Assembly (NCBI RefSeq): GCF_900115735.1
Contig: NZ_FOXO01000002.1
Location: 124,001 to 188,000 of the forward strand
Reading direction: 5' to 3'
Length of the DNA stretch: 64,000 bases
From: Butyrivibrio proteoclasticus
GTDB taxonomy: Bacteria; Bacillota; Clostridia; Lachnospirales; Lachnospiraceae
Positions 13,462 through 19,690 of this stretch are shown here, one piece after another. Under the pieces are notes generated by a model, which saw only the letters and a list, made by a program, of their open reading frames with translations, did no database searches and was not told the origin of the DNA. Every line of letters starts with the position of its first letter. Within the stretch, counting starts at the first letter, position 1. Position numbers and translations under genes: made by a program.

Positions 13462-14544
13462 ATGTCAAGAGTATATAATTTTAGCGCCGGACCGGCTGTT
13501 CTACCAGAAGAGGTATTAAAACAAGCAGCTGCAGAGATGCTTGATTATAATGGATGCGGAATGTCAATTAATGAAATGAGTCATAGATCAAAGACTTTTG
13601 ATAGTGTTATCCAGACTGCTGAGCAGGATATCAGGGATCTTATGAATATTCCTGATAATTACAAGGTTCTCTTTTTACAGGGCGGCGCAAGTCAACAGTT
13701 CGCAGCGGTTCCGCTTAATCTTATGAAAAATGGTAAGGCTGCATATATTATTACCGGTCAGTGGGCTAAAAAAGCTTATCAGGAAGCACAGAAATATGGT
13801 GAAGCAATTGAAGTGGCTTCCAGTGCTGACAAGACATTCTCCTATATACCTGATTGTTCGGACCTTCCGATTCCTGATGATGCGGATTATGTTTATATCT
13901 GTGAAAACAACACAATTTATGGCACAAAGTTTAAGACTTTGCCTAATACAAAAGGACATATTCTTGTTTCTGATGTTTCCTCATGCTTTTTATCAGAACC
14001 TGTAGATGTTACAAAATATGGAGTTATCTATGGTGGCGTTCAAAAGAATGTTGGGCCTGCAGGTCTTGTAATAAGCATTATAAGGGAAGATCTTATTACA
14101 GATGATGTTCCTGTTTATACTCCTACAATGCTTAAGTGGAAGACTCAGGCAGATAACGGCTCTTTATATAACACACCAAACTGCTGGAGTATTTATATGT
14201 GTGGACTTGTATTTAAATGGCTCAAAGCGCAAGGCGGTCTTGAAGAGATGAAAAAGCGAAATGAAGAGAAGGCTGCTATTTTGTATGATTACCTTGATCA
14301 GAGCAAGATGTTCAAAGGTACAGTTCGCAAGGAAGACCGTTCTCTTATGAATGTTCCTTTCATTACGGAAAGTGACGAACTCAATGCAGAGTTTATTGCT
14401 GAAGCTACAAAGGCAGGATTTGTAAGTCTTAAGGGACATAGAACTGTTGGCGGCATGAGAGCGAGCATCTACAATGCAATGCCTATCGAAGGTGTTAGGA
14501 AGCTTGTTGAATTTATGGATAAATTTGAAAAGGAGAGAGCGTGA
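13462..14544 (+). CDS. serC: Phosphoserine aminotransferase
   Basis: 360 residues. A PLP enzyme converting 3-phosphohydroxypyruvate to O-phosphoserine. It begins with the family-typical NFSAGPAVLPEEVL. It has LQGGASQQFAAVP for phosphate binding and the PLP lysine in YGGVQKNVGPAGLV. The end, GGMRASIYNAMP, is also typical. AGGAGGAGAG precedes the ATG. It is the first gene of a serine operon and overlaps serA by 4 bases. Confidence 0.97.
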   Translation: MSRVYNFSAGPAVLPEEVLKQAAAEMLDYNGCGMSINEMSHRSKTFDSVIQTAEQDIRDLMNIPDNYKVLFLQGGASQQFAAVPLNLMKNGKAAYIITGQWAKKAYQEAQKYGEAIEVASSADKTFSYIPDCSDLPIPDDADYVYICENNTIYGTKFKTLPNTKGHILVSDVSSCFLSEPVDVTKYGVIYGGVQKNVGPAGLVISIIREDLITDDVPVYTPTMLKWKTQADNGSLYNTPNCWSIYMCGLVFKWLKAQGGLEEMKKRNEEKAAILYDYLDQSKMFKGTVRKEDRSLMNVPFITESDELNAEFIAEATKAGFVSLKGHRTVGGMRASIYNAMPIEGVRKLVEFMDKFEKERA

Positions 14545-15716
14545 TCATGTACAAATATAAATGTCTGAATCCTATTGCTAAGATTGGACTTAATAATTTT
14601 TCTGATAAATATCAGGCTGTTGATAATGTTGATGAAGCAGAGGGCATTCTTGTAAGAAGTGCCAATATGCTTGAAATGGAATTTTCTGATAATCTTCTTG
14701 CTATAGCAAGAGCCGGAGCTGGTGTTAATAACATTCCTCTTGATAAATGTGCAAAAGAAGGAATAGTAGTATTTAATACTCCCGGCGCTAATGCAAACGG
14801 AGTTAAGGAAATGGTACTTGCTGCTATGCTCATTGCTTCAAGAGATATTATTGGAGGAACAGAGTGGGTAAAAGCCAATGCCGGAGATCCTGATATTGCA
14901 AAACTGACCGAGAAATCGAAAAAGAAATTTGCCGGTACCGAGATTTTTGGCAAAAAGCTTGGCATTATTGGACTTGGCGCTATTGGTGTCAGAGTAGCTA
15001 ATGCTGCAAGACAGCTGGGAATGGAAGTTTATGGATATGATCCATATCTTTCTATTGATGCAGCATGGAGACTTTCATCAGATGTTAAACATGTAACCAA
15101 TGTAGATGAAATATATTCAAAGTGCGATATTATCACAGTTCATGTACCTGCTTTGGATTCTACAAAAGGTATGATTGGTCAGGAAGCAATTGCCAAGATG
15201 AAAAAAGGCGTTATCATCCTTAATCTTGCAAGAGACATCCTTTGTGATGAAGTTGCAATCCTGGCAGGCATTAACTCTGGCAAAATCAGAAAGTATGTTA
15301 CAGATTTTCCAAATCCTACAACAGCAGGCCATGATGGTTGCATAGTCATTCCTCACCTTGGCGCTTCCACGGAGGAGTCTGAAGATAATTGTGCAGTTAA
15401 GGCTGTCCTTGAAATGAAAGACTTTCTTGAAAATGGAAATATTAACAATTCGGTTAACTTCCCTAATTGTGACATGGGAATTTGCAATAACCCTCGAATT
15501 GCTATCTATCACAAGAATGTTGCGAATATGATAAGCCAGTTTACAAAAGAAATTGGTGAGGCTGGGTATAATATCTCTGATATGACAAATAAATCTCGTG
15601 GAGATTATGCATATACTCTTATTGATCTTGAAGATGGAATTGAGGATGCTCTTGTAAGCAAACTTAGCAAGATTGAAGGTGTTATCAGAGTCAGAGTTGT
15701 AAGAAAAGATGCATAA
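14541..15716 (+). CDS. serA: D-3-phosphoglycerate dehydrogenase
   Basis: About 390 residues. It oxidises 3-phosphoglycerate to 3-phosphohydroxypyruvate, the first step of serine synthesis. The Rossmann motif GIIGLGAIGVRVANAA, the NLARD segment with the substrate-handling residues, and HLGASTEESE with the catalytic His are visible. The last 75 residues form an ACT-like domain (IAIYHKNVANMI...), the usual site of serine feedback. The GTG at 14541 overlaps the serC stop and has AAGGAG 5 bases upstream. An ATG at 14547 is the alternative start. Confidence 0.95.
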   Translation: MIMYKYKCLNPIAKIGLNNFSDKYQAVDNVDEAEGILVRSANMLEMEFSDNLLAIARAGAGVNNIPLDKCAKEGIVVFNTPGANANGVKEMVLAAMLIASRDIIGGTEWVKANAGDPDIAKLTEKSKKKFAGTEIFGKKLGIIGLGAIGVRVANAARQLGMEVYGYDPYLSIDAAWRLSSDVKHVTNVDEIYSKCDIITVHVPALDSTKGMIGQEAIAKMKKGVIILNLARDILCDEVAILAGINSGKIRKYVTDFPNPTTAGHDGCIVIPHLGASTEESEDNCAVKAVLEMKDFLENGNINNSVNFPNCDMGICNNPRIAIYHKNVANMISQFTKEIGEAGYNISDMTNKSRGDYAYTLIDLEDGIEDALVSKLSKIEGVIRVRVVRKDA

Positions 15717-15787: not shown

Positions 15788-17041
15788 ATGGCTGATATAA
15801 GACCGTTTAATGCAATAAGACCAAATACAGGAATTGTTAAGGAAAAAGCTGCACTTCCATATGATGTGTATAACAGAGAAGAGGCTTATGAAGAGGTTAA
15901 AAATAATCCAAAGTCTTTTCTTGCCATAGACAGACCTGAAACTCAGTTCCCAAAAGACTACGATATGTATGCTCCTGAGGTTTATGAAAAAGCCAAAGAT
16001 ATGCTCAAAGAGCAGATTATGAACGGGGACTTTATAAAAGATAAAGATAAATGCTTTTATATTTATGAGCAGACCTTTAAGGGAAGAACGCAAACGGGAA
16101 TTGTTGCGTGCGCTTCAATTGACGATTATATAAACGGTACAATAAAAAAACATGAGAACACTCGTGCTGACAAGGAAGAAGACAGGATTAAACATGTTTA
16201 TACCTGCGATGCACAGACTGGTCCCATTTTTTTATGCTATAGGAAAAACAGATTATTATCTGAACTTGTTTTAAAGATAAAAGAATTTGATACGCCCATT
16301 TACGATTTTGAATCAAAAGATAGCGTGAGGAACAGAGTTTGGGTTATTTCTGATGAGGAAGAAGTAAATACGATAAGCAGGATATTTACAACAATAGACT
16401 CAATATATATTGCAGATGGTCATCATAGATGTGCATCAGCTGTAAAGGTTGGTATGAGGAAAAGAAAAGAAGGGGAAGGAAAAGTAAGAGGTAAGCTGAA
16501 ATCCGATTATTTTCTTTCGGTTCTGTTTCCGGATGATGAGCTTGAGATCATGGATTATAATCGTGTGGTAAAAGATCTAAATGGGCTTTCAGAAGTTGAT
16601 TTTTTAGATAAAATTTCTGAAAAATTTGATGTAAAAAAAGAAGATGAAGCCGTTAAACCTGAATTTAAAGGGCAGTTTGGCATGTATCTTGACGGACAAT
16701 GGTACAGACTTAATGCAAAAGAGTTTATACAAAGTGATGATGCAGTTAAAGGGTTGGACGTATCAATCCTTCAAGATCAGATTCTTTCACCTGTACTTGG
16801 TATAGGTGATCCTAAAACTGACAAAAGAATTGACTTTATTGGAGGAATAAGAGGGCTGTCGGAAATTGAAAAAAGGTGTAGCAGTGACTGTAAAGTAGGC
16901 TTTTCAATGTATCCCACATCTATTTCGGAACTTTTTGCAGTTGCTGATAGAGGATTGTTGATGCCTCCTAAGTCGACATGGTTTGAACCAAAGCTCTTAA
17001 GTGGTTTATTTATTCATGATATATGTGGTACAATTGTATAG
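15788..17041 (+). CDS. DUF1015 family protein of the serine operon
   Basis: 417 residues, a typical DUF1015 length. The N-terminus (ADIRPFNAIRP, then ALPYDVYNREEA) and the strongly conserved ADGHHRCASA at residues 208-217 identify the family. The protein is soluble. DUF1015 has no settled function to my knowledge. Its DGHHR motif resembles the D-G-x-H-R signature of ParB/Srx-fold proteins, including free-serine kinases, and the gene lies directly after serC-serA, where a phosphoserine phosphatase might be expected. A role in serine/phosphoserine metabolism is inferred. GGAGG lies upstream of the ATG. Confidence 0.85.
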   Translation: MADIRPFNAIRPNTGIVKEKAALPYDVYNREEAYEEVKNNPKSFLAIDRPETQFPKDYDMYAPEVYEKAKDMLKEQIMNGDFIKDKDKCFYIYEQTFKGRTQTGIVACASIDDYINGTIKKHENTRADKEEDRIKHVYTCDAQTGPIFLCYRKNRLLSELVLKIKEFDTPIYDFESKDSVRNRVWVISDEEEVNTISRIFTTIDSIYIADGHHRCASAVKVGMRKRKEGEGKVRGKLKSDYFLSVLFPDDELEIMDYNRVVKDLNGLSEVDFLDKISEKFDVKKEDEAVKPEFKGQFGMYLDGQWYRLNAKEFIQSDDAVKGLDVSILQDQILSPVLGIGDPKTDKRIDFIGGIRGLSEIEKRCSSDCKVGFSMYPTSISELFAVADRGLLMPPKSTWFEPKLLSGLFIHDICGTIV

Positions 17042-17066: not shown

Positions 17067-17180
17067 GTTTTTGTTTTTTCTCAGAAAAACAAAAACGTAC
17101 TGGACTAGCTTTCATCTTTAGATGAAAGCGTATCTGGCGAGGCCGGATTCTTGCGGGCAATTTCCGCTTTTGACCGCAAG
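17067..17180 (+). other. Three consecutive hairpins upstream of the GlgB-like gene
   Basis: The 183-base gap before the GlgB-like gene holds three perfect stems. The first is 12 bp, 17067-17078 with 17085-17096. The second is GCTTTCATCT / AGATGAAAGC with a 2-base loop, 17108-17129. The third is CTTGCGG / CCGCAAG, 17150-17156 with 17174-17180. None is followed by a clear T tract, so they do not look like ordinary terminators. The segment 17130-17180 is more G+C-rich than its surroundings. A structured leader, a protein-binding site or a decayed repeat element are all possible. Confidence 0.55.
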
Positions 17181-17224
17181 AAGTCATATTTTCTTGTTAT
17201 AGATTACCCAATGGGGAGGGAGAC

Positions 17225-19690
17225 ATGAATAATAAGCTATATAAGATGATGAATTGGCCGGAGATTGAGGAAATTATCTATTCTGATGGCGACAATCCAC
17301 ACAGAATTCTTGGAGCTCATAAGGTTGGCTCTAATTTTCTTATTCAGGCTTTTTATCCGGATGCGAAAGAGATAAGTGTATTTGTAGAAAATACAAAAAA
17401 GACTTATCCAATGGAACTTGCAGATGAAGCAGGCTTTTATGCTGTTTTGGTTCCTTATATTGAGAAGTTTAGATATAAACTTGTTATCACAGATGTAAAT
17501 GGGGAGCAGACTTCTGTTGATGATCCATATGCCTTTGAGCCATATATGGACAGAGAGGACTTTATAAAATTTGGCAGTGGCATTCACTATCATATTTATG
17601 AGAAACTTGGCGCACATCCGATGAAAAGAGGAACTGTACAGGGAACTTTATTTGCTGTTTGGGCACCTTCTGCTTCAAGAGTAAGTGTTATCGGAGATTT
17701 TAATAACTGGGATGGAAGAGTATGCCAAATGCACAGACTCGATCCAATTGGTGTGTTTGAAATTTTTGTTCCCGGTGCAAAAGAAAATGATGGATACCAG
17801 TTTGAAATAAAGACACGAAGTGGTCTTATTTTTAAAAGACCAGATCCTTATGCAATGCTGAGCCGTGGTGAGAATGGCATGATATCAGTCATAAGTGAAC
17901 GTAAATCAATCATTTGGAATGATTCAAAATGGCTTGCAAAGAGAAGAAAGTTTGAGCTTGATGAATCACCTCTTTCAATATGCGAGATATCAATTGAAGC
18001 TTTTGCCGGAAGACACGAGGGCAGGAGTACAATAGAAGAAATAACTTCAGATATACTTGAATATGTACAGAATCATGGTTTTAATGCTATTGAACTTATG
18101 CCGGTAATGAAACATGTTCCCGGACACTTTTACCATATTTTGGATTTCTTTGCGCTTGATGATTCTAATGGAACACCGGAAGAATTCATGAAGTTTATTG
18201 ATACATGCCATAGTGCAGGGATAAGAGTAATCCTTGATTGGGTTCCAACGTTTTTTCCTAAGTCATCATGTGGTCTTAGTGGCTTTGATGGAAAGAGTCT
18301 TTATGAATATGAGGATCCAAGGATTGGTGTTCATCCAAAATCCGGGGACCTGATATTTGATTATGGAAGAAAAGAAGTTACAAATTTTCTTATTTCCAAC
18401 GCTTTATATTGGATTGAAACATTCCATATTGATGGTCTTAGAACTTCTGATATTTCAAGAATACTTTATCTTGATTATGACAGAAAGCCAGGAGAATGGG
18501 TTGCAAACATCTACGGAGGAAATGAGAATCTCGAGGCATTGGAATTCCTTAAACAGTTTACAACTGTCGTTCATAAGAATAATCCGGGAGTTATTCTCAT
18601 TACAAAAGAAACAGCATGTTGGCCACAGGTGACAGATTCGGTTGAAGATGGCGGACTTGGATTTGACTATAAATGGAATAATGGGTGGACGAGAGATTTT
18701 CTCTCATATATTCAAAATGACCCGTTGTTCAGAGCTGGACATCACGATGAACTTACTTTCAGCATAATTTACAGCTATACTGAGAGATTTATTCTGGGCT
18801 TTACACATGAAGAGCTTGAAAAGGGATTGGAAGGCCTTTATTATCTGATGCCCGGTGATTCCACACAGAAAATGGCTAATTTGCGCCTGGCAATAAGCTA
18901 TATGATGGTGCACCCAGGCAGAAAACATCTTTATATGGAACCTGATGCATTGACTGTTGATCAGTCTGTTTTTGTTGAAAATATGCTTTCTAAGCTCCAT
19001 AAGCTTTACTATGAACATGAGGCGCTGCATCAGCTTGACAGCTCTGATGGCGGATTTGAGTGGATCAACAATATGGCTACAGATGAATGCATGCTTTCTT
19101 TTATTAGAAAGAGTAATGATTCACAAGAGATGCTTTTAGTAGTTGCAAATATGGCCGGAGTTGGAAGAAATGTCGAAATAGGAGTTCCGGCTGATGGCAG
19201 ATATACTGAAATTTTCAACAGTGATGATCTTTCTTATGGCGGAAGCGGAGTTTTGAATGAAGGTAAGAAGGAAGCCAGAAGAAAAGAAGTAGATGGACGT
19301 GATTATTCACTTTCTATCAAAATTGGACCAGTATCTCTTTGTATTTTCAGCTATGTTCCATATTCTGAACAGGAGAAAAAGATCCGCGCAATTAAGGAAG
19401 AAGAGGAACTTAAGAAAGAGGCTGAAAGACAGGAAAGACGAGCTGCTCTTAAAGAAATGCAGAGCAAAGAGGAAGAGAGAATCTTAAAAGAACTCAAAGA
19501 AAAATATGAGAGAGAGCTTTTGGAGCAGGAAAAGGCAATAGAAGAAAAGTATGAAAAGATTGAAGAAGAAAGAATTTCTACTATTGTATCTGCCGATGCG
19601 ATAAAGAGCCTGTCTTCCAAGAAAAAAGCGGGTTCAAAAACCTCGGGCGCATCTAGAAAAAATACGACTAAAAATTCTAAAAAGCAGTAA
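17225..19690 (+). CDS. Catalytically degenerate GlgB-family protein with charged C-terminal tail
   Basis: 821 residues; E. coli GlgB has 728. The whole branching-enzyme scaffold is visible. N1 (LGAH, residues 1-110) and a CBM48-like N2 domain (FAVWAPSASRVSVIGDFNNWDG, about 145-170) precede the GH13 barrel and its C-terminal domain. Aligned to E. coli GlgB with a constant offset of 3, the nucleophile Asp405 is Ser408 (DGLRTSD), the acid/base Glu458 is Lys461 (TKETACWP), Asp526 is Glu529 (THEE) and His340 is Phe343 (DWVPTFFP). Asp335, Arg403 and His525 equivalents remain. Branching activity is therefore unlikely; a glucan-binding or regulatory role is inferred. Residues from about 715 form a Glu/Lys-rich, probably coiled-coil tail ending in a Ser/Lys-rich stretch. 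GGGGAGGGAG precedes the ATG. No other glg gene is in the window. Confidence 0.88.
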   Translation: MNNKLYKMMNWPEIEEIIYSDGDNPHRILGAHKVGSNFLIQAFYPDAKEISVFVENTKKTYPMELADEAGFYAVLVPYIEKFRYKLVITDVNGEQTSVDDPYAFEPYMDREDFIKFGSGIHYHIYEKLGAHPMKRGTVQGTLFAVWAPSASRVSVIGDFNNWDGRVCQMHRLDPIGVFEIFVPGAKENDGYQFEIKTRSGLIFKRPDPYAMLSRGENGMISVISERKSIIWNDSKWLAKRRKFELDESPLSICEISIEAFAGRHEGRSTIEEITSDILEYVQNHGFNAIELMPVMKHVPGHFYHILDFFALDDSNGTPEEFMKFIDTCHSAGIRVILDWVPTFFPKSSCGLSGFDGKSLYEYEDPRIGVHPKSGDLIFDYGRKEVTNFLISNALYWIETFHIDGLRTSDISRILYLDYDRKPGEWVANIYGGNENLEALEFLKQFTTVVHKNNPGVILITKETACWPQVTDSVEDGGLGFDYKWNNGWTRDFLSYIQNDPLFRAGHHDELTFSIIYSYTERFILGFTHEELEKGLEGLYYLMPGDSTQKMANLRLAISYMMVHPGRKHLYMEPDALTVDQSVFVENMLSKLHKLYYEHEALHQLDSSDGGFEWINNMATDECMLSFIRKSNDSQEMLLVVANMAGVGRNVEIGVPADGRYTEIFNSDDLSYGGSGVLNEGKKEARRKEVDGRDYSLSIKIGPVSLCIFSYVPYSEQEKKIRAIKEEEELKKEAERQERRAALKEMQSKEEERILKELKEKYERELLEQEKAIEEKYEKIEEERISTIVSADAIKSLSSKKKAGSKTSGASRKNTTKNSKKQ

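Follow-up and report, generated by a model that had tools for sequence, protein, structure and literature searches.

A maintained, catalytically dead GlgB at the type-1 branching-enzyme locus of Butyrivibrio

The dead glgB gene, its domains and its lost active site

pGlgB is a catalytically dead type-1 branching-enzyme homologue of the GlgB family, encoded in a 64,000-nucleotide stretch of Butyrivibrio proteoclasticus DNA (contig NZ_FOXO01000002.1, positions 124,001 to 188,000 of the forward strand), which is called the window below. The source genome, of the genus Butyrivibrio, measures 4.17 Mb. The gene lies at 17225..19690 on the plus strand and encodes 821 amino acids. It is nearly certain that pGlgB is a maintained pseudoenzyme, with its fold kept (as predicted), its catalytic residues lost and its sequence under strong purifying selection. 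An earlier note on this DNA, made from the letters of the window, had described an intact reading frame with a strong ribosome site, and this holds: the frame, its start and the ribosome site are as stated there, with 821 open codons. The start codon is ATG in the source genome and GTG in most close orthologues. Two hairpin-like inverted repeats lie upstream at 17080-17190 and are not conserved across the genus. A conserved RNA leader was rejected on the grounds that these hairpins are not conserved in 30 aligned close orthologues, and an Rfam search upstream of the gene gave no credible match.

pGlgB has the domain order of a type-1 GlgB by Pfam, N1-CBM48-GH13 barrel-C-domain, with every part on the plus strand. 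The N1 domain spans residues 11-102 (17255..17530; Pfam GlgB_N, E-value 2e-31) and is followed by CBM48 at residues 127-210 (17603..17854; Pfam E-value 2.3e-28), which includes Trp162. The GH13 barrel, at about residues 250-600 (17972..19024; Pfam Alpha-amylase), holds the ruined active site and has 8/8 strands predicted. It is followed by a C-terminal beta domain at residues 613-709 (19061..19351; Pfam Alpha-amylase_C), a single long helix predicted by AlphaFold2 at residues 715-788 (19367..19588) that is clade-specific by profile search, and a Lys-rich end (19589..19687) that is predicted to be disordered and is weakly constrained.

The AlphaFold2 model, built with 34 sequences, has a mean predicted local distance difference test score of 83.5, a predicted template modelling score of 0.81 and all eight barrel strands complete, with weak loops at residues 355-366 and 417-432. 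Branching enzymes are the top-scoring solved relatives of pGlgB, aligned over most of its length, and they also fit the model best in Foldseek, where Mycobacterium tuberculosis GlgB (3k1d, 35% identity) reaches a template modelling score of 0.88 by target length. pGlgB scores above the NCBIfam cut-offs of TIGR01515 and NF008967 and below that of NF003811; these cut-offs are blind to the triad, and two of the three main branching-enzyme models thus pass a protein that has lost it. By domains, fold, tree and locus, pGlgB belongs by descent to the GlgB family of GH13 branching enzymes.

The catalytic residues of E. coli GlgB, which we take to be H340, D405, E458 and D526, were located in pGlgB by a HMMER alignment and a MAFFT alignment, and the two agree. 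Phe343 (18251..18253) replaces the substrate His (H340), Ser408 (18446..18448) the nucleophile Asp (D405), Lys461 (18605..18607) the acid/base Glu (E458), and Glu529 (18809..18811) the third catalytic Asp (D526), all on the plus strand. With S408, K461 and E529, pGlgB lacks the residues of an active branching enzyme (EC 2.4.1.18). A GH13 protein without the nucleophile and the acid/base residue cannot use the usual retaining mechanism. D338, R406 and H528 are retained; H528 stands beside Glu529, and region IV reads HE, not HD. Asp409, directly after Ser408, is new and fixed in the dead clade.

The alignment is not forced, because no gap lies near any catalytic site. The offset of +3 from E. 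coli numbering also holds at kept residues, with Y300, D335, R403 and H525 corresponding to Y303, D338, R406 and H528, and W159 to W162; W159 is a glucan site IV residue in Table 1 of PMC10254366. A shift of register that would bring Asp409 or Glu462 into catalytic position was rejected, with no indel nearby and Arg406 and Tyr415 in register. Glu462 was likewise dismissed as a substitute acid, as intact enzymes also carry it as the usual Glu next to the site. The earlier note's reading of this region therefore stands: the four substitutions and the constant offset recur in both alignments, no other acid takes over a catalytic position, and the branching-enzyme scaffold is kept over the full length in the four Pfam domains, the whole predicted fold and the GlgB structure matches.

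Conservation of the dead copy and repeated loss of catalysis

A full-length or nearly full-length pGlgB orthologue with at least 49% identity is present in 75 of 79 genus genomes. The remaining four genomes are 60-72% complete; three have a single match resembling the other GlgB, and one has no match. Residues were read in 50 of the 75 orthologues, all with long open frames. The nucleophile site holds Ser in 31, Ala in 11, Thr in 5 and Pro in 3, and never Asp; the acid/base site holds Lys in 49 and Arg in 1, and never Glu; the substrate His site holds Phe in 44, Tyr in 5 and Ser in 1, and never His; and the third acid site holds Glu in 49 and Asp in 1. Since not one of the 50 retains the nucleophile, the acid/base residue or the His, the losses are neither chance nor sequencing error.

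The Nei-Gojobori ratio of nonsynonymous to synonymous substitution rates (dN/dS, omega) of the dead GlgB is 0.028-0.050 in 10 pairs with dS up to 1, similar to the 0.021-0.101 of the intact-triad partner GlgB (5 pairs), with pairs that overlap in the sequences used. The limit on dS was set because synonymous sites are saturated genus-wide.

The source genome has one other GlgB (L002), a protein of 658 amino acids that is encoded on another contig, lacks N1 and keeps the triad intact. It is a type-2 GlgB, a class that lacks N1 (classed after PMC6339891). A second GlgB match is present in all 75 genus genomes that carry the dead copy, and the 21 second copies that were read are all intact. Across the wider set, the triad is intact in 54/54 type-2-like copies, a sample drawn by likeness to intact type-2 GlgB that favours intact ones. 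A third GlgB-like type of about 600-640 amino acids (L254, L255) occurs in some Lachnospiraceae, with an intact triad and the motif AEDS[TS].YQG. The source genome also has one glgA and two glgC genes above the curated cut-off. The glgC-like genes form two separate pairs (G000:C31:64339-66646 and C51:46964-49155), each probably glgC with a glgD-type partner; the weaker match beside each glgC may be glgD.

The earlier note had proposed a maintained pseudoenzyme, and genus-wide orthologues with the same losses, strong purifying selection by dN/dS, an intact second GlgB and a complete predicted fold bear this out. The random decay among orthologues that would have spoken against it is not seen in the 50 read. 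Orthologues with the same losses, which the note had proposed to look for, do occur together with a second, intact GlgB; in the source genome that copy is not adjacent but on another contig.

The type-1 glgB locus of Lachnospiraceae has the order ilvB-YkuD-serC-serA-DUF1015-glgB-mscS-argH, with the MscS identity established by Pfam in three loci. In the window, the conserved locus markers are a SerC-like class-V aminotransferase (13462..14544), a SerA-like 2-hydroxyacid dehydrogenase (14541..15716) and, as upstream neighbour, a DUF1015 protein (15788..17041), all on the plus strand. Among 76 intact type-1 copies, mscS lies directly downstream in 62 of the 72 with enough flank, and serA or DUF1015 lies upstream in 60. 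This intact set was assembled manually, on the basis of record titles and kinship, and includes a few members whose label is just Clostridiales or 'bacterium'. Butyrivibrio-type dead copies have serA or DUF1015 upstream in 42/56 and mscS downstream in 15/53; in the source genome and close relatives, apt-relA lies downstream instead of mscS. The other triad-broken copies have mscS downstream in 9/14 and serA or DUF1015 upstream in 5/14. In the available flank, neighbours of the ser-mscS locus stand beside 0/54 type-2-like copies; as only 33 of 55 such loci extend at least 900 bases downstream and 35 at least 700 upstream, the absence covers part of the set. For these counts, as for the FastTree phylogeny and the comparison of dead with intact sequences below, identical proteins were merged, and so were the 12-13 loci that came from a genome sampled twice.

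The tight glgB-mscS pair occurs throughout Lachnospiraceae with both intact and broken type-1 copies (e.g., L036, L125, L157). The median gap is operon-like, at 19.5 bases in 70 intact loci and 7 bases in 29 broken loci, with some genomes included twice. Since the dead copies share the type-1 locus, the resident gene changed in place and is not a spare copy that arose elsewhere: the dead gene is the in-place syntenic orthologue of the ordinary Lachnospiraceae type-1 GlgB. Duplication next to an active copy was rejected, with the intact copy on another contig and the dead copy in the ancestral locus.

Triad-broken type-1 genes are also found elsewhere in Lachnospiraceae, among others in Blautia glucerasea (L141, with Gln461 and Arg529) and at L101/L122, L132, L222, L168 and L180. 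In a FastTree phylogeny of 217 sequences, broken copies fall in five separate Lachnospiraceae clades and one gammaproteobacterial case. In a mixture-model tree of 63 sequences, from which all columns around the catalytic sites were removed, the broken state needs 7 changes, 4 of them forced by well supported branches alone. A constraint that unites all 24 broken copies lowers the log-likelihood by 249 units, and a single origin of all broken type-1 copies is rejected on the quick tree by the approximately unbiased (AU) test (p-AU 0.0004), whose group was named after a first tree but ahead of the one that lacks the catalytic columns. There were several independent losses of catalysis at one syntenic locus; the count is worded as several because L168 was flagged as a long branch and L180 and L089 are long too.

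Lachnospiraceae genomes whose broken type-1 copy falls outside the Lys461 set were searched for another GlgB, and 17/17 have one with an intact triad; among these, G472 resembles the genus member G059, and the G425 gene is split by contig ends, with its sites read from a 468-residue piece. In five genomes in which the search found no second GlgB (G364, G171, G251, G187, G476), the type-1 triad is intact. The exception is a gammaproteobacterial metagenome-assembled genome, possibly incomplete, in which the only GlgB found has Lys in the nucleophile position (L149). That copy (L149:1710-4286, from Thiomargarita) keeps the Glu and Asp, and the gene just downstream appears glgA-like by eye. It was left out of the Lachnospiraceae counts, and L148, which would figure as broken in the FastTree phylogeny just because a contig end cuts off its last site, was set aside. 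L125 (His to Asp) and L177 (His to Arg) have intact triads and were counted as intact.

A second dead type-1 family comprises Blautia glucerasea and relatives (L141, L162, L164, L213, L214, L215, L231). It carries Gln461, Arg529 and the motif AQEDG.W, has mscS downstream in 5/7 and shows no match to the Butyrivibrio helix.

Changes outside the triad and explanations for retention

A conserved helix of about 74 residues was added in the Butyrivibrio-type clade and is absent from the intact relatives searched. A profile built from nine members matches 68 of 69 clade loci (57 distinct proteins; loci counted here without collapsing identical proteins) at 63.8 bits or more, and the 69th is cut by a contig end. 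The best match outside the clade reaches 9.0 bits, and in the source genome no second protein with the same helix was found at E-values up to 1. Across 30 close orthologues, the mean amino-acid difference is 0.194 in the helix, 0.172 in the barrel and 0.632 in the Lys-rich end; amino-acid differences serve for this domain comparison, as per-domain dN medians rest on differing pair sets. Lys/Ala/Thr-rich low-complexity ends such as that at 19589-19687 (and the L055 and L063 C-termini) also occur on some type-2 GlgBs of the genus. The other broken lineages have different tails or almost none, and as they lack this helix, it is an addition and not the reason for retention everywhere.

In a comparison of 54 dead (Lys461) with 71 intact type-1 sequences, the latter including other phyla, 153 positions hold the same residue at 90% or more, 19 have switched and been refixed, and 29 have lost constraint. 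The switches around the old active site are A342T, N379D, A409D, V410I, M413I, A460T, E461K, S463T, A465C, M486N and D529E. The pocket was rebuilt and not scrambled, which may reflect either that an empty site was balanced in charge and stabilised or that a ligand site was newly formed. Of the 13 groups of triad-broken type-1 copies, 12 lost most identity in the barrel: relative to the intact-copy level, identity in those 12 is 0.55-0.83 in the barrel, 0.84-0.99 in N1, 0.82-1.03 in the C-domain and 0.72-0.96 in CBM48. The exception is the long-branched L168, with 0.61 in N1 and 0.66 in the barrel. Of twelve representative surface glucan-site residues of E. coli GlgB, only W159 and the site VIII aromatic carry over. 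The other residues were dropped as evidence and are uninformative, because most of them vary in intact type-1 relatives too.

Genus-wide retention of a dead GlgB beside an intact copy suggests a job without need for catalysis. There is about an even chance that pGlgB serves glycogen synthesis as a non-catalytic scaffold that binds glucan or as a regulatory partner. A type-1 branching enzyme would have lost its chemistry in place and been kept as a non-catalytic component. pGlgB would bind alpha-glucan through CBM48 and its outer surfaces, and N1 and the long helix would serve for dimerisation or for contact with a partner, of which the active type-2 GlgB is the likeliest candidate and GlgA or the glycogen particle are alternatives. 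It would thereby localise or tune branching without cutting chains itself. This role fits the dead site, the strong purifying selection, the refixed positions, the outer domains that changed less than the barrel, the retention of W162, the intact second GlgB, the glgC- and glgA-type genes and the clade-specific helix; glucan binding, the partner and the effect on branching are inferred. Several observations weigh against it: Lys192 of CBM48 is fixed to Gln in the Butyrivibrio-type clade, the former substrate cleft residues W373, S302, R314 and H581 have lost constraint, W162 is Phe in 5 and His in 1 of the 54 Lys461-type sequences, and no glycogen gene is seen among the neighbours viewed at dead glgB loci. 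The partner of the helix could just as well lie outside glycogen metabolism.

The main rival, which we consider possible and clearly the less probable of the two, is neofunctionalisation away from glucans, with the barrel as a rigid platform and the helix binding a partner in another process. A conserved charged helix that is new exactly in the dead clade speaks for it; the Lys192 and cleft changes and the lack of glycogen genes among the neighbours agree with it, and plant MKIP1 is a direct precedent (PMC13172542). It fits less well with W162, which is kept in 48/54 Lys461-type sequences and in all 17 distinct triad-broken Lachnospiraceae copies outside that set, with the constraint on N1, CBM48 and the C-domain, which is nearer normal than that on the barrel, or with the loss of catalysis at the same locus elsewhere without the helix. 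Another rival is an ancestral second function, in which Lachnospiraceae type-1 GlgB always had a catalysis-independent role that was unmasked where another GlgB does the chemistry. The independent losses in one syntenic locus, the intact type-2-like copies and the intact type-1 triads of the five genomes without a second GlgB are in keeping with this, and the steady pairing with mscS at short distance, in intact and broken copies, points to a possible link with the mechanosensitive channel and osmotic state. We nevertheless judge it unlikely: apt-relA and not mscS lies downstream in the window and close relatives, synteny can be inherited without function, the type-2 sampling favours intact copies, and the idea overlaps with the scaffold explanation.

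That pGlgB is still an enzyme, with a refixed pocket (Asp409, Lys461, Glu462, Cys465, His528, Glu529) that performs another reaction, is improbable. A409D, E461K, S463T, A465C and D529E are each conserved at 90% or more; however, no retaining-glycosidase nucleophile or acid/base residue is present, position 408 varies among Ser, Ala, Thr and Pro, and charge compensation of an empty site can explain the pocket. Least credible of all, and hardly worth entertaining, is that pGlgB is a plain decaying pseudogene or an artefact of assembly. The absent catalytic residues would agree with either, but the long open frames of the 50 orthologues read, an omega of 0.03-0.05, an orthologue in 75 of 79 genomes and a complete predicted fold do not.

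The glycogen scaffold remains the preferred reading. A broader proposal, which we offer tentatively, joins it to the locus: type-1 GlgB would have an ancestral catalysis-independent job in the serC-serA-DUF1015-glgB-mscS locus and, free to lose its active site wherever another GlgB does the chemistry, would repeatedly have been kept in dead form as a glycogen scaffold or membrane-coupled factor, with Butyrivibrio adding a rod-like docking helix. If the scaffold reading is right, the independent losses at one locus would be natural replicates for asking which branching-enzyme features matter without chemistry.

Relation to known branching enzymes and noncatalytic relatives

Type-1 GlgBs (GH13_9; E. 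coli, M. tuberculosis 3k1d) have the same N1-CBM48-barrel-C order and fold as pGlgB. pGlgB differs in that it lacks the nucleophile, the acid/base residue and the substrate His, has Glu for the third Asp and carries an extra C-terminal helix. Butyrivibrio hungatei MB2003 has two branching enzymes, of 824 (glgB2) and 663 amino acids, and both are listed as enzymes in the account given in PMC5716241. By size and genus alone, the 824-residue glgB2 fits as a counterpart of pGlgB; if it is dead, glycogen-structure predictions that count GlgB copies would be wrong. Several glgB homologues are also described in Blautia obeum and Dorea longicatena (PMC10395257). In the open-access literature, a scope that leaves out preprints and most subscription journals, we found no report of a dead GlgB retained beside an intact one and no paper on a GlgB-mechanosensitive channel operon.

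Within bacteria, the GlgA-GlgB fusion of Criblamydiaceae and Waddliaceae is described as containing a branching-enzyme domain without activity (PMC11046441). That domain results from a rearrangement in a defective pathway, whereas pGlgB is a protein in its own right, refixed and with an intact GlgB in the same genome. GlgD belongs to the same pathway and phylum as pGlgB and is an inactive subunit that modulates its active relative GlgC in Clostridiales/Firmicutes; unlike pGlgB, it comes from another protein family, and its heterotetramer was shown by experiment (PMC9093745).

Further parallels are in plants. ISA2 is a GH13 protein in which the nucleophile and other catalytic residues vary and which, like pGlgB, is kept beside an active paralogue, ISA1 (PMC12510319). 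As with ISA2 and GlgD, a related intact-triad gene (L002) is present in the genome of pGlgB. ISA2 differs in belonging to the debranching-enzyme family and in having been shown to bind ISA1; pGlgB is not known to interact with a partner. MKIP1, among the class III plant branching enzymes, is likewise dead and under selection, with catalytic residues replaced and a new charged segment; it has lost branching activity and binds the splicing factor MatK through this acquired insertion (PMC13172542). The helix profile places a gained segment specific to the dead clade in pGlgB as well. MKIP1 differs in being eukaryotic, in carrying its segment after the CBM, in keeping the acid/base Glu and in having a known partner. 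The reason for selection on noncatalytic ISA2 is called not understood in PMC12510319, and the question of why noncatalytic GH13 relatives stay under selection becomes testable in bacteria. If the scaffold reading is true, bacteria would have in pGlgB an equivalent of what ISA2 and MKIP1 are in plants.

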